This document shows, one piece after another, positions 14,656 to 32,072 of a stretch of DNA of 40,880 nucleotides. A program made the position numbers and the translations under genes. The number at the start of each line of letters is the position of its first letter. Position 1 is the first letter of the stretch. This DNA comes from an uncultured Pelagibacteraceae bacterium (GTDB lineage: Bacteria; Pseudomonadota; Alphaproteobacteria; Pelagibacterales; Pelagibacteraceae): assembly GCA_902619495.1 (NCBI GenBank), contig CACNEM010000006.1:1-40880 (forward strand), read 5' to 3'. Below the pieces are notes generated by a model, which was given only the letters and a program-made list of their open reading frames with translations, had not been told where the DNA came from and did no database searches.

Positions 14656-15120
14656 ATGTTTTTATCAAGTTTCGAGAACAAAATAGACAAGAAAGGTCGA
14701 GTATCTGTGCCAGCTACTTTTAGATCACATCTTAACTCTATGGGTTATAATGGCTTTATAAGCTATCCATCTTTTAACCATACAGCTTTAGAGGCATGCT
14801 CTCAGGATAGAATTGAAAAATTATCAAATACAATAGACTCTCTTAATCCGTTTGAGGAAAAAAGAGATTATTTTGCAACTTCTGTTTTATCAGAAAGTGA
14901 AAATCTTCAATTTGATACTGAAGGCAGAGTTTCAATTTCAGAAAAATTATTAAGCCATGCCAAAATTAAAAATAATGTCTTATTTGTTGGGTTAGGGAAA
15001 ACATTTCAAATTTGGGACCCTAAAAATTTTGATAAATTTAAAACTCTTGCTAGAAAAAAGGCTTTTCAAAATAGATCTAATTTAAAGTGGGAAAACAAAC
15101 AGAAAGGGGAGGTATTATGA
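14656..15120 (+). CDS. mraZ: Transcriptional regulator MraZ
   Basis: DNA-binding regulator that in E. coli and Mycoplasma controls its own dcw operon. 154 residues with the two SpoVT/AbrB-like half-domains: DKKGRVSVPATFR at ~11-23 and DTEGRVSISEKLL at ~92-104, each with the typical D-x-x-G-R-[VI] signature. Length is normal. It is the first gene of the long co-directional dcw run and lies downstream of a promoter overlapped by TGGG repeats. Its TGA stop overlaps the ATG of ftsZ (ATGA), so the regulator and the main division protein are translationally coupled here, an unusual pairing. Confidence 0.96.
   Translation: MFLSSFENKIDKKGRVSVPATFRSHLNSMGYNGFISYPSFNHTALEACSQDRIEKLSNTIDSLNPFEEKRDYFATSVLSESENLQFDTEGRVSISEKLLSHAKIKNNVLFVGLGKTFQIWDPKNFDKFKTLARKKAFQNRSNLKWENKQKGEVL
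15106..15113 (+). promoter_or_regulatory. Strong Shine-Dalgarno sequence of ftsZ
   Basis: GGGGAGGT (15106-15113) lies 3 nt before the ftsZ ATG at 15117, inside the mraZ coding end. It contains GGAGGT, a long match to the 16S rRNA 3' end, whereas most starts inspected in this window have little or none. It decides the ftsZ start over the in-frame GTG- or ATG-like codons upstream. Confidence 0.6.
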
Positions 15121-16622
15121 GCATAAATGTCGGCGGCGGTGAGTTAAGGGAGTTAAAACCTAGAATACTAGTAGTTGGAGTAGGAGGAGCTGGGGGAAAT
15201 GCTATTAATGCAATGATTGAAGCAGGAATGCAAGGAGTCGAATTTGTTGCAGTAAATACTGATGCACAAGATTTAAAAATGAGCAAGGCAGATGCAAAAA
15301 TACAAATAGGTATGAATTTAACTAAGGGACTCGGTGCTGGAGCAAAGCATGATATTGGTCAAGCCGCAGCTGATGAGTCTATAAATGAAATAGTAAATTA
15401 TATTCAAGGTAGTAATATGGTTTTCATCGCTTCAGGAATGGGAGGTGGAACTGGCACTGGTGCCTCTCATGTTATTGCGAGAGCTGCAAGAGAAATGAAT
15501 ATTTTAACTGTAGGTGTTACTACATTACCATTTTCATATGAGGGCCCTAAAAGAATGAGAAGAGCAATTGCAGGTCTAGAAGAATTGAAAAAATATTTAG
15601 ATACTACGATTGTAGTTCCTAATCAGAATTTATTTAAAATTGCTAACGAAGCAACTGGGTTTGAAGAGTCATTTAGCTTATCAAATGATGTTCTAAAGCA
15701 CGGAGTACAAAGTATAACTGATCTAATGGTAAGACCTGGGATGATCAATTTAGATTTTGCTGATGTTGAAACTGTCATGAACTCAAGTGGAAAAGCAATG
15801 ATGGGTACAGGTGAAGCTGATGGAGAGAATAGAGCTATGGCCGCAACCGAGTTAGCTTTAAATAATCCGTTAATTGATGAATATTCTTTACAAGGAGCAA
15901 AAGGATTGCTTGTAAATATAACTGGTGGAAGTGACATTAAACTTTTTGAAGTTGATGCGGCCGTAAACAAGATCAGAGCTGAGGTAGATCCCGAAGCAGA
16001 ATTGATATTTGGTGCAATAAAAGATGAAACTATGAATGGTAAAATAAGAGTTTCAATTGTAGCTACATCTCTAAAAGGTTCTACAATTTCATCAGAATCA
16101 AGACCAATTCTGAATATTGTAAGTAATTCAAATAATAGAAATAATTTTTCTGAAAATTTGTTTTCAAAAAATAGTATTGAACAAAATGTTATGAGCTCAA
16201 TCGAGGGCGCAAACGCTTTGAAGCTTGACGAAAGTTACGAAATAAAAAATAACGAAGAACAAAATGCGCTAATAGATAGCTTCGAAAGAAACGAGGAAAA
16301 CCAGATTGCAGAAAATTCAATTAACAAATCTCATTCAGCAGATGAAATTCCCTCTGGTGTATCTATTGAAAGTACCACATATATAGAAAACAATTTAGAA
16401 AATGACACCTTAAATGAGAACGTAATCACTGACAATAATTTTGATCAAGAAAATATAAAAGAAGAATTTACTCCTAAACTTTTCAATGAGGAAAATAATG
16501 ATTTCGATAACTCTGAGGAAAAGGATTTAAGAGAGAATAATGAAACAGATCAATTATTCGATCAAGAGCTAAAAGAAGAGGATTTTGAAATTCCTGCATT
16601 TCTAAGAAGACAGAAGTTTTAA
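15117..16622 (+). CDS. ftsZ: Cell division protein FtsZ
   Basis: Tubulin-like GTPase forming the Z-ring at midcell. 501 residues. The GTP-binding domain includes VVGVGGAGGNA (~19-29), the tubulin signature GGGTGTG (109-115) and the GTP-hydrolysing T7 loop NLDFADVE (~218). The C-terminal subdomain ends near VSIVATSLKG. A linker of ~160 Asn/Glu-rich residues, long for the family, leads to the C-terminal conserved peptide FEIPAFLRRQKF, which binds FtsA and other anchors. The start is the ATG overlapping the mraZ stop and is preceded by a strong SD. Its place between mraZ and rsmH differs from the usual site between ftsA and lpxC. After its stop only an 18-bp gap with a 10-bp palindrome (16621-16630) precedes rsmH. 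Confidence 0.98.
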   Translation: MSINVGGGELRELKPRILVVGVGGAGGNAINAMIEAGMQGVEFVAVNTDAQDLKMSKADAKIQIGMNLTKGLGAGAKHDIGQAAADESINEIVNYIQGSNMVFIASGMGGGTGTGASHVIARAAREMNILTVGVTTLPFSYEGPKRMRRAIAGLEELKKYLDTTIVVPNQNLFKIANEATGFEESFSLSNDVLKHGVQSITDLMVRPGMINLDFADVETVMNSSGKAMMGTGEADGENRAMAATELALNNPLIDEYSLQGAKGLLVNITGGSDIKLFEVDAAVNKIRAEVDPEAELIFGAIKDETMNGKIRVSIVATSLKGSTISSESRPILNIVSNSNNRNNFSENLFSKNSIEQNVMSSIEGANALKLDESYEIKNNEEQNALIDSFERNEENQIAENSINKSHSADEIPSGVSIESTTYIENNLENDTLNENVITDNNFDQENIKEEFTPKLFNEENNDFDNSEEKDLRENNETDQLFDQELKEEDFEIPAFLRRQKF

Positions 16623-16640
16623 TGATCATTTTTAAAAAAA

Positions 16641-17651
16641 ATGAAAACCCAAACTACATCACTGGAATTTTCCCATTTTCCAGTAATGTTGAGCGAAGTA
16701 ATTCATATTTGTTCACCTAAAAAGGGTGGACTATTTGTTGATTGCACATTTGGAGGTGGAAATTATTCAAATGCGATTCTTGAATTTCCAAAAACTAAAG
16801 TAATTGCTATCGACAGGGATAAAGCCGTGATTTCAATTGCAAAAAATCTTCAGAAAAAGTTTAAAAATAGATTTCAATTTCATCAATCAAAATTTAGCCA
16901 AATAGATACAATTTTAAATAGTGAAGTTGATGCAATTATTTTTGATCTTGGTCTTTCATCTATACAATTAAGAGATCTAAAAAGAGGTTTTTCATTTAAA
17001 TCTAGAGATAAATTAGACATGCGGATGGGACTCACTGAATTGTCAGCACTAGAAGTTATTAATAACGTTAATGAGAAAAAACTAAAATTAATTTTAAAAA
17101 TTTTAGGTGATGAAAAAGAAGCATCAAAAATTGCAAAAAATATTGTTAAGGCTCGACAGGAAAAAAAAATTACCAAGGTTGATGAATTAGTTGAAATTAT
17201 AGAAAAGAGTAAAAAAAAAAATTATTCTTCAAAAATAAATCCAAGCACTAAAACTTTTCAAGCTTTGAGAATCTTTGTTAATAAAGAAATTACAGAGCTG
17301 ATGGAAGGAATTACAAAAGCGACACAACTATTGAAACCTGGCGGAAGGATTATAATTGTTAGTTTTCACTCAATCGAAGATAAGATAGTAAAATTTTTTT
17401 TTAGTAATTTTTCTCAAAATAAATCTAAACCCTCAAGATACTTACCAGAAGAGATTAATAATAATTCTTTTTTATTTGAAAATTACAATAAGAAAGCAAT
17501 AAAACCCTCAATAAATGAAATAAACAAAAATAACCCATCACGTTCTGCGAAACTAAGATTTGCCACAAGAAGTAAAAATAAGTTTGTTTATCCTGCGAAT
17601 TTGTTTTCAAAATTTAATAAATATATAGATATCGAGGCTCACAATGCTTAA
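16641..17651 (+). CDS. rsmH: 16S rRNA (cytosine-1402-N4)-methyltransferase RsmH
   Basis: Methylates N4 of C1402 in the ribosomal P-site region (older name mraW). 336 residues. It begins with FSHFPVMLSEVI, the family's first motif, followed by the SAM-binding DCTFGGGNYS loop, IAIDRDKAVI, the DLGLSSIQLRDLKRGFSF motif, DMRMG, and the C-terminal TFQALRIFVNKE and IIVSFHSIEDKIVKFFF blocks. An in-frame A11 tract (17211-17221) encodes part of a Lys run. Normally directly behind mraZ; here ftsZ intervenes. Its 3' end overlaps the ftsL-like gene by 8 bp. Confidence 0.97.
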   Translation: MKTQTTSLEFSHFPVMLSEVIHICSPKKGGLFVDCTFGGGNYSNAILEFPKTKVIAIDRDKAVISIAKNLQKKFKNRFQFHQSKFSQIDTILNSEVDAIIFDLGLSSIQLRDLKRGFSFKSRDKLDMRMGLTELSALEVINNVNEKKLKLILKILGDEKEASKIAKNIVKARQEKKITKVDELVEIIEKSKKKNYSSKINPSTKTFQALRIFVNKEITELMEGITKATQLLKPGGRIIIVSFHSIEDKIVKFFFSNFSQNKSKPSRYLPEEINNNSFLFENYNKKAIKPSINEINKNNPSRSAKLRFATRSKNKFVYPANLFSKFNKYIDIEAHNA

Positions 17652-23513: not shown

Positions 23514-24801
23514 ATGCTTTCCACTAGCAATATTAAAAAATTATCTTTTCTCGTTTATGGATTAGGACAGACAGGCCAGTCTGTAGTTAATTTTTTTAAA
23601 AGAAACAATTTTCAGAGTTATAAAGTATGGGACGATTTTAATAAGAATTTATATAAAAAAAAAAGAGTAAATAATTTAAATAAAGCATTGAAAAATGTAG
23701 ATTTTATAGTTCTAAGTCCTGGAGTAAGTTTAAATCAATCCAAAAATAAAAATAAATTATTTCAGTTTAGAAAAAAAATTATTACAGATATAGATCTTAT
23801 TTATTTACTAGGAAATTTTTCTAAAAGTATTGTTGTAACTGGAACAAACGGGAAATCGACAACTTGTAAGATAATAAATCACATATTAACAAAAAATAAT
23901 TACAAAACATTTCTTGGAGGAAATATTGGAACACCAATTTTAAATTTAAAAATGAATAGAAGAAAATTTTTAATAATTGAAGCCTCCTCTTTTCAGCTTT
24001 CTCACTCTAAATTTATTCGTCCAGATTATGCCTTACTTCTTAATATAACCAATGATCATCTTGATTGGCATCGAACAAAGAAAAATTATATTAATTCAAA
24101 GTTTAAAATTTTTAATTTACAAAAAAAAAACTCAATTTTCAATTTTAAACAACAAATTCAAAATCGAGTTTAAAAAAAGAAACTTACATGGAAAATTAAT
24201 TGTACCTAAAATTAATTCATATCTAAAAATCAAACATAAGATCAAAAATTCGTATTTAAAATTAGATATAAATGACGAAAACATGTCTTTTGTTCTTACC
24301 TTATCAAAACTGATCGGAATAAGTGAAAAATCATTTGTTAAATCATTAAATACTTTTATTGGTTTACCGCATAGGTATGAGGTTTTTTTGAAAAAGAAAA
24401 ATTGTGTATTTATAAATGACTCAAAGGCCACCTCATTTGAGGCTACAAAGTTTGCTTTAAGAAATACAAAAAATTTATTTTGGATTGTTGGAGGCTTACC
24501 TAAAAAAAACGATAGAATAACTTTGAACAACCTGAAAAAAAATATAGTAAAATCATATATTATCGGGAAAAATACAAACTTTTTTAAAAAACAAGTTCAA
24601 AATAAGATTAATTTTCACGTTTCCAAAAATTTAAGAAGTTCGATAATTAAAATTTTAAAAGATATTAAATTGTTCAATAAGAAAAAAAATACGATTTTAC
24701 TAAGTCCTGCATCAGCTTCTTATGACCAATTTTTAAATTTTGAAAAAAGAGGTGAAATATTTAAAAAACTAAGTAAATATTATGCTAGAAAATTCATTTA
24801 A
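23514..24801 (+). CDS. murD: UDP-MurNAc-L-Ala:D-Glu ligase MurD, frame interrupted in an A10 tract
   Basis: Adds D-glutamate to UDP-MurNAc-L-Ala. The first frame (23514-24173) supplies YGLGQTGQSV (15-24), ATP loop GTNGKST (110-116), EASSFQLS (156-163) and NDHLDWH (180-186). The rest (GLPHRYE, INDSKATSFEATKFAL, WIVGGLPKKND, LSPASASYDQF) continues in the +1 frame to 24801. The switch falls at ten consecutive A (24121-24130); with nine, one 428-residue protein results, normal for the family. The second frame is open from about 24052, but its first ~25 residues (MIILIGIEQ) are only an out-of-frame copy of the shared region. Options are a base-calling or assembly indel, transcriptional slippage restoring the frame, or a recent mutation. 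murD is essential, so true loss is unlikely. Confidence 0.9.
24121..24130 (+). repeat. murD: A10 homopolymer at the murD frame break
   Basis: Ten A between TTTAATTTAC and CTCAATTTTC. Upstream codons run in one frame and the conserved downstream MurD codons in the frame one base later, so the tract is one A too long (or two too short) for a continuous gene. Such tracts are prone both to sequencing error and to polymerase slippage. Confidence 0.85.
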
Positions 24802-29285: not shown

Positions 29286-30216
29286 AAAAAAATTTAAAAA
29301 AGTTGTCGTAGTGCTTGGTGGAACTTCAGGAGAAAGAGCAGTAAGTCTTGATAGCGGCAAAGCATGCATAAAAGCTCTTAAAAAAAAGAAGTACTCTGTT
29401 ACTAAGTTTGACCCAAAATTTAAAAATTTGAACTTAATAAATAAAAACGAAACTGATGTAATTTTTAATGCATTGCATGGAAAGGGTGGTGAAGATGGTT
29501 TGGCACAAAGCTATTTTGAATATTTAAAAATCCCTTATACTCACTCAGGAGTTATAAGTTCTTATAATTCAATGGATAAGATTATTTCAAAAGAAATATT
29601 TTTAAAAAATAAAATTTTGACCCCAAAATATTTTTCAATTTATAAAAACGAAAATAATAGTAACATTTTAATGACAATGTTAAAAAGAAGAAAGATTTCT
29701 TTTCCCGTTGTAATTAAACCAACAAATGAGGGATCAAGTCTCGGAGTAAAAATAGTAAAAAATTTTAAAGATTTAAAAAAAGCAACTAAATTATTGTTTA
29801 AAAATTATACACAATTAATTTTTGAGGAATTTATAGGAGGTCAGGAAATACAAGCAGCTATATTAAATAATCTTGCTATTGGCGCTATTGAGCTAATACC
29901 CAAAAGATCATTTTACGATTATAAAGCTAAATATACAAAATCTGCAAAAACAAAACATATAATGCCTGCAAGACTAAAAAAAAATAAATACCTTGAAGTT
30001 TTAAAAATAGCAAAAAAAGCTCATCTAGCTCTTGGATGCAAAGGCGTAACAAGAACTGATTTTAAATTCTATAAGAACAAATTTTATATTTTAGAATTAA
30101 ATACGCAGCCTGGTATGACTAGCCTTTCATTAGTACCAGAAATAGCAAATTACAAAGGCATAAGTTTTCCCGACTTGGTAGAAAAAATATTGTTAGATGC
30201 TAGTTGTAATAAATGA
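29278..30216 (+). CDS. ddl: D-alanine:D-alanine ligase
   Basis: Makes D-Ala-D-Ala, the substrate of the MurF half of the fused ligase. About 312 residues, ATP-grasp fold. VLGGTSGERAVSLDSG at ~13-28 is the substrate-binding head, NALHGKGGEDG follows (~64), PVVIKPTNEGSSLGV (~142-156) and FEEFIGGQEIQ (~183) bind ATP, and RTDFKF plus ELNTQPGMTSLSLVPE near the end carry the metal and D-Ala sites. There is no ATG near the start: GTG at 29278 or TTG at 29275 must be used, both within the last codons of murB. The end overlaps the ftsQ ATG (ATGA). Confidence 0.95.
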   Translation: MIKKKFKKVVVVLGGTSGERAVSLDSGKACIKALKKKKYSVTKFDPKFKNLNLINKNETDVIFNALHGKGGEDGLAQSYFEYLKIPYTHSGVISSYNSMDKIISKEIFLKNKILTPKYFSIYKNENNSNILMTMLKRRKISFPVVIKPTNEGSSLGVKIVKNFKDLKKATKLLFKNYTQLIFEEFIGGQEIQAAILNNLAIGAIELIPKRSFYDYKAKYTKSAKTKHIMPARLKKNKYLEVLKIAKKAHLALGCKGVTRTDFKFYKNKFYILELNTQPGMTSLSLVPEIANYKGISFPDLVEKILLDASCNK

Positions 30217-30872
30217 AAAAAAAATTATTTATAGCTATTATATTTTTATTTCTTTTTACCACTTTTCATGCACAAAACGGTTTCAATTTTAAAGTAAATT
30301 CTAAAGTAAAGGAAATTATAATAGAAAATAATTTTATAATTGATGAGAGTGAAATTAAAAAAGACTTGTCTTTTTTGTATAATGAAAATCTTTTTTTAAT
30401 TAAAAACTCAGATATAAATGAAAATTTGAGTCAATCGAGCTTTATAGAAAGTTTTGAAATTAAAAGAATTTATCCTAGTAAATTAAAAATTAAAATTTAC
30501 GAGAAAAAACCCATCGCAATTTTACAAAATAAAAAAAAAAAATACTACTTTACAGATAAAGCAGATACTATTGATTTTATGAATTTGGAAAGATTTAATA
30601 ATTTACCACTAGTATTTGGAGATAAAGTTAACTTTAAAAAATTTCACAATAGTTTAAAAAAAATTGACTTTCCGATTAGTTCGATAAAAACTTTTTACTT
30701 TTTTGAAACAAAAAGGTGGGATTTAATCACTAAAGAAAAAAAAACTATTAAACTTCCACCAAAAAATTTCGAAAAAAGCTTAAAAAATTATATGAGCATT
30801 AAAAATAGAGAAAATTTTGATAAATATAATATCTTTGATTATAGGATAAAAGAACAACTTATAATTAAATAA
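30213..30872 (+). CDS. ftsQ: Cell division protein FtsQ (short form)
   Basis: Divisome scaffold with a periplasmic POTRA domain. 219 residues, shorter than most FtsQ (about 270-310). The hydrophobic segment begins at residue 5 (LFIAIIFLFLFTTFHA, ~5-20), leaving only a MKKK cytoplasmic tail. The POTRA domain follows (~30-100), ending in YPSKLKIKIYEKKPIAIL, a typical FtsQ stretch. The second beta domain runs to WDLITKEKKTIKLP (~169-182) and the final NYM...YNIFDYRIKEQLII, resembling the FtsQ C terminus. FHAQ could even be a signal peptidase site. An in-frame A12 tract (30531-30542) encodes a Lys run. Identity rests on these motifs and location between ddl and ftsA. Confidence 0.9.
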   Translation: MKKKLFIAIIFLFLFTTFHAQNGFNFKVNSKVKEIIIENNFIIDESEIKKDLSFLYNENLFLIKNSDINENLSQSSFIESFEIKRIYPSKLKIKIYEKKPIAILQNKKKKYYFTDKADTIDFMNLERFNNLPLVFGDKVNFKKFHNSLKKIDFPISSIKTFYFFETKRWDLITKEKKTIKLPPKNFEKSLKNYMSIKNRENFDKYNIFDYRIKEQLIIK

Positions 30873-30875
30873 CTT

Positions 30876-32072
30876 ATGCAATATAAATCCTTAGTTTTTT
30901 TTGTTGAGATAAATGATCTAGAATTTTCATTTATTGTTGGAGATAACATTAATGAAGAACAATTTAAAATAATATTTACAAATTCTATACCTATAAAAGG
31001 AATTCAGGATAATAAAATTACTAACCTGGATCTAGTTTGTAATACTTTAAAAGAAAATATATTAAAAATAGAAAAAAAAGTAAATTTTGTTTTTAAAGAA
31101 GTTATTCTTGTAATAAATAATTTTAATTTTACCCTTAATTCATGTACCGGTTTTAAGAAATTAAACGGTTCTCAACTCACTAAAGAGAATATTACTTATA
31201 TACTTAATTCTCTTAAATTATTAATAAGCGAAACTGAGCAGGATAAAAAAATTATTCATATTTTCAACACCAGATACTTTTTAGACAAAAAAGAGACGAC
31301 AAATTTACCCATAGGATTATTTGGAAATTTTTATTCTCATGAATTATCTTTTTTTCTTATAAACAATAATGATTATAAAAATTTAAAAAATATTTTTGAT
31401 AAATGTAATTTAAAGATTAACAAAATTATTTCTAAAAGTTTTATTGAGGGAGTTAATTTAATTAATCTTAATAAAAATTCAGAGTCATTTTTTAAAATCG
31501 AAATTAAAGATACGAATTCTCAAATTATCTTATTTAAAAATTCATCTTTAAAATTTGTTCAAAACTTTAAATTTGGTTCTAATTTAATCTTAAGCGATAT
31601 TTCAAAAATAATAGCTATTAAAGAGGATTTAGTAAAAGATATGTTATTTAACCAAACTTTTTTTAATGAAAATTTTGATAATGAGTATTTAGAAAAAAAA
31701 TATTTTCAGAGTCAAAATTTTAGAAAGATAAAAAAAAAACTTATTTATGAAATTGCTGAAGCAAGAATTTTTGAATTAGCTGAAAAAATTCTGCTTAAAA
31801 ATTTAAATATTAACAACTTTTTAAAAAAAAATGTCACTATCTTTTTACAAGTTAAGGATAAAAATTGTTTTAATTCTTTTGAGAAAATTTTCATGAATTC
31901 TTTTTCATTTAAAAAAAAATATGATCTGAAAACTTTAGAAAATCTTAATATTGAATCTTTGTATGAAAGTGCTAATAAACTTGTTCAATATGGGTGGAAA
32001 AAAGAGGCGGTGCCTATAATCCAAGAAAATAATTCAATTATCGCAAGATTCTTCAACTATATTTTTAAATAA
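30876..32072 (+). CDS. ftsA: Divergent FtsA-like divisome protein
   Basis: Position after ftsQ, 398-residue length and a C-terminal amphipathic helix (IIARFFNYIFK, 388-398) like the membrane-targeting tail of FtsA identify it as the FtsZ membrane anchor. Segments such as FGSNLILSDISKIIAI (~233-248) and YEIAEARIFELAEKI (~291-305) match conserved FtsA helices. However, the actin-family nucleotide signatures are not recognisable: phosphate 1 reads VEINDLEFS (10-18) instead of a DIGSSK-like motif, phosphate 2 IEIKDTNSQI (208-217) instead of DIGGGTTD, and the adenosine motif FLQVKDKNC (323-331) instead of TGGG. It may have lost ATP binding. Starts 3 bp after ftsQ. The family call is confident only with the context. 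Confidence 0.82.
   Translation: MQYKSLVFFVEINDLEFSFIVGDNINEEQFKIIFTNSIPIKGIQDNKITNLDLVCNTLKENILKIEKKVNFVFKEVILVINNFNFTLNSCTGFKKLNGSQLTKENITYILNSLKLLISETEQDKKIIHIFNTRYFLDKKETTNLPIGLFGNFYSHELSFFLINNNDYKNLKNIFDKCNLKINKIISKSFIEGVNLINLNKNSESFFKIEIKDTNSQIILFKNSSLKFVQNFKFGSNLILSDISKIIAIKEDLVKDMLFNQTFFNENFDNEYLEKKYFQSQNFRKIKKKLIYEIAEARIFELAEKILLKNLNINNFLKKNVTIFLQVKDKNCFNSFEKIFMNSFSFKKKYDLKTLENLNIESLYESANKLVQYGWKKEAVPIIQENNSIIARFFNYIFK

Follow-up and report, generated by a model that had tools for sequence, protein, structure and literature searches.

The usual view of FtsA is that of an actin that depends on ATP and governs cell division through its polymer state. In S. pneumoniae, both the membrane attachment and the polymerisation of FtsA are reported to depend on ATP binding, and a gain of function can come with variants whose self-interaction is weakened (PMC5832921). 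Mutations in the ATP region have been reported to abolish both the self-interaction of FtsA and its interaction with FtsZ. Deletion of subdomain 2B is also reported to abolish FtsZ binding, and subdomain 1C to be needed for self-interaction and for the recruitment of FtsQ and FtsN (PMC4281207). In E. coli, E14, which lies in phosphate-1, and S84 are reported to be essential for ATP-dependent vesicle remodelling and for magnesium-dependent membrane release. The E14R and S84L proteins bind lipid with or without ATP, and their function in vivo is lost while 61% and 68% of the ATPase activity is still present (PMC10213515). Among the titles and abstract openings of the open-licence PMC literature, no paper on the FtsA of SAR11 or Pelagibacter was found. 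In the accessible passages of PMC papers that name both FtsA and SAR11/Pelagibacter, FtsA comes up, if at all, in other contexts or in the reference list only.

Here we describe an ftsA gene in a 40,880-nucleotide stretch of DNA from an uncultured Pelagibacteraceae bacterium (the window, meaning the whole stretch that was analysed). The features discussed are collected in Table 1.

Table 1. Coordinates of the division genes and FtsA parts discussed in the text (window positions unless a locus is named)
Feature	Position	Strand	Description
ftsA	30876..32072	+	398-aa FtsA ortholog; three nucleotide motifs all replaced
Phosphate-1 position	30903..30929	+	VEINDLEFS, residues 10-18; canonical D/E-x-G-S/T; Glu kept, Gly lost
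Phosphate-2 position	31497..31526	+	IEIKDTNSQI, residues 208-217; canonical D-x-G-G-G-T; lost
Adenosine-motif position	31842..31868	+	FLQVKDKNC, residues 323-331; canonical T-G-G-x-S; lost
Subdomain 1C (SHS2) core	31158..31352	+	SHS2_FTSA match, residues 89-151, below cut-off; column conservation
2B helix with R297, E300	31719..31787	+	counterparts of E. coli R300, E303
GWKKEAxP box and C-terminal amphipathic membrane-targeting helix	31989..32069	+	conservation, model, moment
ftsQ	30213..30872	+	219 aa; POTRA domain above cut-off
ftsZ	15087..16622	+	lies upstream of ftsA by about 14 kb; EIPAFLRRQKF, the C-terminal peptide, is encoded at 16587-16619
Mini-FtsA, example from genus g6	L189:1366-2064	-	about 233 aa, without domain II (2A/2B)
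Further mini-FtsA loci of g6	L183, L184, L194, L207-L228		

An FtsA ortholog behind ddl and ftsQ

The reading frame of the window's ftsA is intact. Its product matches the NCBIfam family TIGR01174 with an E value of 2.5e-30 and 105.8 bits, which does not reach the curated cut-off of 175.85. The Pfam matches, SHS2_FTSA at 5e-4 and FtsA at 0.25, are likewise each below their cut-offs. Solved FtsA chains are matched by the single sequence (phmmer; 7q6d, 9.6e-14), and a profile built from 19 relatives finds E. coli FtsA at 4.9e-22. Low family scores are common in the window's order: the TIGR01174 cut-off is exceeded in 10 of 247 genomes at the level of the order, 37 of 41 at that of the class, and 294 of 299 at that of the phylum. 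G596, G533, G446 and G546 are rare genomes of the phylum with a weak FtsA match or none at E 1e-12.

An AlphaFold2 model of the protein was computed from 15 input sequences (pLDDT 76.8, pTM 0.76), with pLDDT below 50 at residues 94-98, 135-137 and 141-155, within 1C, and at 372-398, the tail. The 19 best Foldseek matches of this model are all FtsA chains. FtsA also takes ranks 1-11 in VIA-align, with Z scores of 20.1-21.9 over 341-359 residues at an rmsd of 5.5-6.2. The FtsA-type actin fold, including subdomain 1C, is present in the protein according to Foldseek, VIA-align and the SHS2_FTSA match. Since the TIGR01174 match, the 19 best Foldseek matches and the gene slot ddl-ftsQ-ftsA-lpxC agree, the frame encodes a true FtsA. 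The preliminary description had stated that the usual length, the helices and the amphipathic tail of FtsA persist, and this is borne out by the 398 residues, the helices of the model and the tail moment (see below).

The window's ftsA lies downstream of ddl-ftsQ, between ftsQ and lpxC, and the order murC-murB-ddl-ftsQ-ftsA-lpxC is found in the compared SAR11 loci. A BLAST search with the window protein did not pick up FtsA at one of these loci, L274, where TIGR01174 had found it in that place. FtsQ frames span 217-246 aa across the 40 SAR11 loci compared, and the distance between ftsZ and ftsA is 13-14 kb in other SAR11 genera where both genes are on one contig. The preliminary description had combined the moved ftsZ and the short FtsQ with the loss of the nucleotide motifs as signs of a reworked divisome. 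This connection does not hold, because genera that retain the pocket motifs (g5, g6, g7 and g8) show both traits as well. In the window, ftsZ lies between two frames whose translations read as mraZ and rsmH (14656-17651). In G301, a genome outside SAR11, ftsZ adjoins ftsA.

Nucleotide motifs in the window's genus and in wider SAR11

Motif columns were compared in an alignment of 139 FtsA rows from 186 loci, from which rows below 300 aa, duplicates and unassigned loci had been dropped. The window's genus (g1) contributes 56 distinct rows, the window included. Samples are small for g9 (n=3), g5 (n=2), g7 (n=2, one cut short), g8 (n=4), g51 (n=1) and g52 (n=1). The phosphate-1 and phosphate-2 stretches were placed by the profile, opposite LEIGT and DIGGGT of E. 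coli. The profile match stops near residue 318, and the adenosine stretch was placed by the multiple alignment only; therefore, an alignment-free count of GG or GxG was also made.

The window's FtsA has none of the phosphate-1, phosphate-2 and adenosine motifs of the actin/Hsp70/sugar-kinase ATPases, either in the alignment or in the alignment-free count. The phosphate-1 Gly column in g1 holds N in 37 rows, D in 9, S in 6, G in 2, and Y and E in 1 each. The acidic residue of this motif is mostly kept (Glu in 49/56, Asp in 2/56). At the phosphate-2 Asp column, g1 has E in 20, K in 17, Q in 8, N in 6, D in 3 and S in 2, and the next Gly column retains G in 7 of the 56. None of the three adenosine columns has Gly in any row (0/56 each), and the second is Asp in 39/56. 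By comparison, 29 other alphaproteobacterial rows keep the phosphate-1 Gly in 29/29, the phosphate-2 Asp in 28/29 (E in 1) and the phosphate-2 Gly in 29/29. The claim of the preliminary description that all three motifs are replaced was thus correct, with the amendment that at phosphate-1 it is the Gly that went, and the Glu has mostly stayed. It had called for an alignment of SAR11 FtsA; within the window's genus, the motif columns are degenerate across the 56 distinct members, and the loss is not one genome's error.

The alignment-free count agrees. GG or GxG within residues 281-360 is seen in 0/56 rows of g1 and 0/3 of g9, and in 17/17 of g6, 23/23 of family f2 and 25/29 of the other alphaproteobacteria, a group in which some sequences are longer at the N terminus. 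A displacement of the motifs to elsewhere in the g1 protein was considered, and the count of 0/56 is against it. A [DE]-x-G string occurs in residues 1-45 of 3/56 g1 proteins and in residues 181-240 of 11/56. When columns are ranked by conservation, the twelve pocket columns lie at the 69th-93rd percentile in the alphaproteobacteria. In g1, nine of them lie at the 4th-38th percentile, and the remaining ones rank at 81, 66 and 56. Other ATPases of the window's genome keep their motifs: DnaK has IDLGTTN/YDLGGGTFD/LVGGMTR, and MreB has AIDLGTAN, the N-terminal motif being the only part seen.

Departures from the canonical motifs are also seen in other SAR11 groups. In all 50 SAR11 sequences outside g1 and g9 (groups f2, g5, g6, g7, g8, g51 and g52), the phosphate-2 Thr position is Lys (41) or Arg (9). 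The same position is Thr, Ser or Val in other alphaproteobacteria. This substitution was perhaps an early step that preceded the loss of the pocket. In f2, Arg additionally replaces the phosphate-1 Gly in 20/23. The full-length rows of g6 (n=17), a genus that we take to be Pelagibacter, keep the phosphate-1 Gly in 17/17, the phosphate-2 Gly in 16/17 and the adenosine Gly in 17/17, and the columns of their pocket residues show little or no variation. The single sequences of g51 and g52, neighbours of g1 and g9, keep E-x-G, D-I-G and G-x-G-S. The sister genus g9 has its own degenerate set of motifs in 3/3 sequences, one of which keeps the phosphate-2 Gly. Because g1 and g9 are joined on a four-protein tree (SH-aLRT 99, quick method), the loss of the three motifs is best assigned to the stem that they share, as judged from the sequences.

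Retained parts, selection and short forms of FtsA

Subdomain 1C is the best-conserved part of g1 FtsA, with a mean of 2.78 bits per column compared with 1.83-2.20 in the other parts. In subdomain 2B, the columns of R297 and E300 are R and E in 56/56 g1, 29/29 alphaproteobacterial, 23/23 f2, 17/17 g6 and 3/3 g9 rows. Their E. coli counterparts, R300 and E303 as counted from the profile alignment, are presumed to face FtsZ. R283, opposite E. coli R286, is R in 52/56 g1 rows; it was dropped as evidence because the column is mostly not R in the other alphaproteobacteria (N 10, Q 3, H 3 and K 3 of 29). The GWKKEAxP box and the amphipathic tail are also conserved in g1. The model places a tail helix at residues 388-397 with low confidence. 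The amphipathic moment of the window's tail is 0.59 (3.75% of shuffles are as high), and the mean over the 56 g1 sequences is 0.55.

The window's FtsZ ends in the peptide that presumably meets this pair, and the tail EIPAFLR[RK]Q plus two residues is present in 30/30 loci. FtsZ of 17 genus members is 71-83% identical to the window's. Three tethers of FtsZ were looked for, FtsA, SepF and ZipA. SepF was found in 0/32 genomes (7/14 control genomes gave SepF) and ZipA in 0/32 (the E. coli control matched). FtsA is the sole one found among the three tethers sought.

The gene is maintained in g1. A match is present in 108 of 151 genus genomes, including 12/12 of those at least 90% complete; none of the 43 genomes without a match is among these 12. 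Full-length matches share 32-58% identity with the protein of the window, and no in-frame stop was seen among the matches listed. For the 16 closest pairs below 99.5% identity (Nei-Gojobori method, own script), dN/dS is 0.10-0.34 in 14 g1 pairs, and two g6 pairs give values of 0.14 and 0.22. The purifying selection on g1 FtsA argues against a pseudogene, and this explanation was rejected on the dN/dS values and the intact frames.

A different reduction is seen in g6. A search of 114 genomes gave a match in 105 and none in 9. The frame is 220-245 aa in 64 of the matched genomes and 370-401 aa in 30, and the other 11 have fragments or broken frames below 200 aa. This count is by frame length; the joined architecture of the mini-FtsA was seen in 16 mini copies. 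In the copies examined, profile positions 1 to about 190 are fused in frame to about 345-390. The deletion corresponds to about residues 192-355 of the window protein, and the phosphate-2 motif, the 2B helix and the adenosine motif are gone. The mini-FtsA occupies the same gene slot as full-length ftsA and is found in the single-contig genomes G062, G063, G067 and G070. In G073, also a single-contig genome, the mini-FtsA frame (L200/L246) is split into pieces of 76 and 175 aa, by error or decay.

The short g6 forms do not make up one clade on the four-protein tree (AU p 0.005), which calls for two changes or more. If domain II cannot be regained, the tree gives three deletions, one of which rests on an 82/82 fork. 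Reacquisition of a full-length FtsA by the G066-like lineage is a possible alternative to repeated deletion. The FtsA of this lineage (L080) shares 61% identity with a full-length copy from its own subclade, 44% with the mini-FtsA L183 over domain I only, and 32-35% with three other full-length copies. The FtsZ tail peptide is kept in G062 (L158), a mini-FtsA genome without 2B, where another partner may read it. Conservation of the tail is therefore no proof of FtsA binding.

Proposed function without the pocket motifs, and known systems

The best explanation, which we consider likely, is that g1 FtsA is a nucleotide-independent 'pseudo-actin', a membrane adaptor for FtsZ and later division proteins. 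In this mechanism, FtsA would be anchored to the membrane by its C-terminal amphipathic helix and to the conserved C-terminal peptide of FtsZ by the 2B helix, which carries R297 and E300; subdomain 1C would contact neighbouring FtsA and the later proteins. Without bound ATP, nucleotide would no longer switch assembly or membrane release, and the protein would stay in the recruiting state. We infer that g1 FtsA binds FtsZ and the membrane, recruits later proteins, binds no ATP and is constitutively active. The preliminary description had proposed only a passive anchor for FtsZ. The loss of the ATP signatures, with the fold, R297/E300 and the membrane tail kept, favours a nucleotide-independent anchor over the other readings; the restriction to 'only passive' is unsupported. 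The published results from model species, in which ATP matters for just these functions, speak against this explanation, so that the loss of the pocket must have been compensated somehow. It is nevertheless plausible that an FtsA lacking the pocket stays membrane-bound and recruiting, because the E14R and S84L proteins bind lipid whether ATP is present or not and because weaker self-interaction can gain function.

The pocket could instead still bind nucleotide or another ligand through new residues, leaving FtsA a switch. The phosphate-1 Glu and the Asp of the second adenosine column, each frequent in g1, may hint at a remaining ligand site, and the actin fold is intact. We regard this as unlikely in view of the low conservation of nine of the twelve pocket columns in g1 and the lack of Gly at all three adenosine columns; g9 is, moreover, degenerate in its own way, though one sequence keeps the phosphate-2 Gly. 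Decay is also a candidate, in which FtsA would be dispensable and another tether would hold FtsZ. The low scores across the order, the short frame of most matched g6 genomes, the broken frames in G073 and G184, the FtsZ tail kept beside a mini-FtsA, and the fast evolution of FtsA and FtsQ are in line with decay. It is nonetheless improbable given the dN/dS values, the presence of ftsA in all 12 genus genomes of at least 90% completeness, the lack of in-frame stops among the matches listed, and the conservation of 1C, R297/E300 and the tail.

An assembly or alignment error, or a paralog that is not FtsA, would fit the family score below the cut-off and the broken murD frame elsewhere in the window, and is very improbable. 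An assembly artefact was rejected on finding the same kind of protein in many other genomes, and the slot and fold are the same; the genus-wide data largely exclude this reading. The break itself is a murD-like gene, so named from its translation and place, that is split into two overlapping frames near a ten-A run (23514-24801). It is either a length error in the A run or a real frame break.

SAR11 bacteria are among the commonest in the ocean. Taken together, their sequences lean towards a picture in which SAR11 dismantles the FtsA ATPase cycle by parallel routes: Lys or Arg at the phosphate-2 Thr position, Arg in f2, three-motif loss in g1 and g9, and loss of domain II in g6. The g6 mini-FtsA would then consist of 1A-1C and the membrane tail, without the ATP cleft or the known FtsZ site. 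If this is true, the irreducible job of FtsA would be that of a 1C-plus-membrane adaptor, not of an ATP-driven actin filament. A natural FtsA that is under selection without pocket motifs would show that nucleotide cycling is dispensable. The natural stages in SAR11 (lysine-loop, pocketless, domain-II-less and canonical) would make the ATP need of FtsA testable.

Compared with known systems, the window's FtsA shares a fold of about 350 residues with FtsA of E. coli, Vibrio, Staphylococcus and Thermotoga (7q6d, 7q6f, 3wqu, 1e4g, 4a2a), as well as the place behind ftsQ, the counterparts of R300/E303 and the C-terminal amphipathic helix. It differs from them in the loss of the three motifs, and its identity to them is 10-15% by structure alignment. 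The g6 FtsA occupies the orthologous slot in the same gene order as in g1; its full-length rows, unlike those of g1, keep the motif Gly residues. Arp7/Arp9 (VIA-align rows 16 and 19) have the actin fold in common with the window's FtsA and are not division proteins. In Arp7/Arp9, the actin fold serves as a scaffold instead of building a dynamic filament; the structure 5tgc (row 16) is titled as ATP-bound. Deinococcus radiodurans FtsA is reported to be functional without ATPase activity, as a pocketless FtsA would be. However, it still interacts with ATP and needs ATP to polymerise (PMC4281207), whereas g1 FtsA is without the binding motifs.
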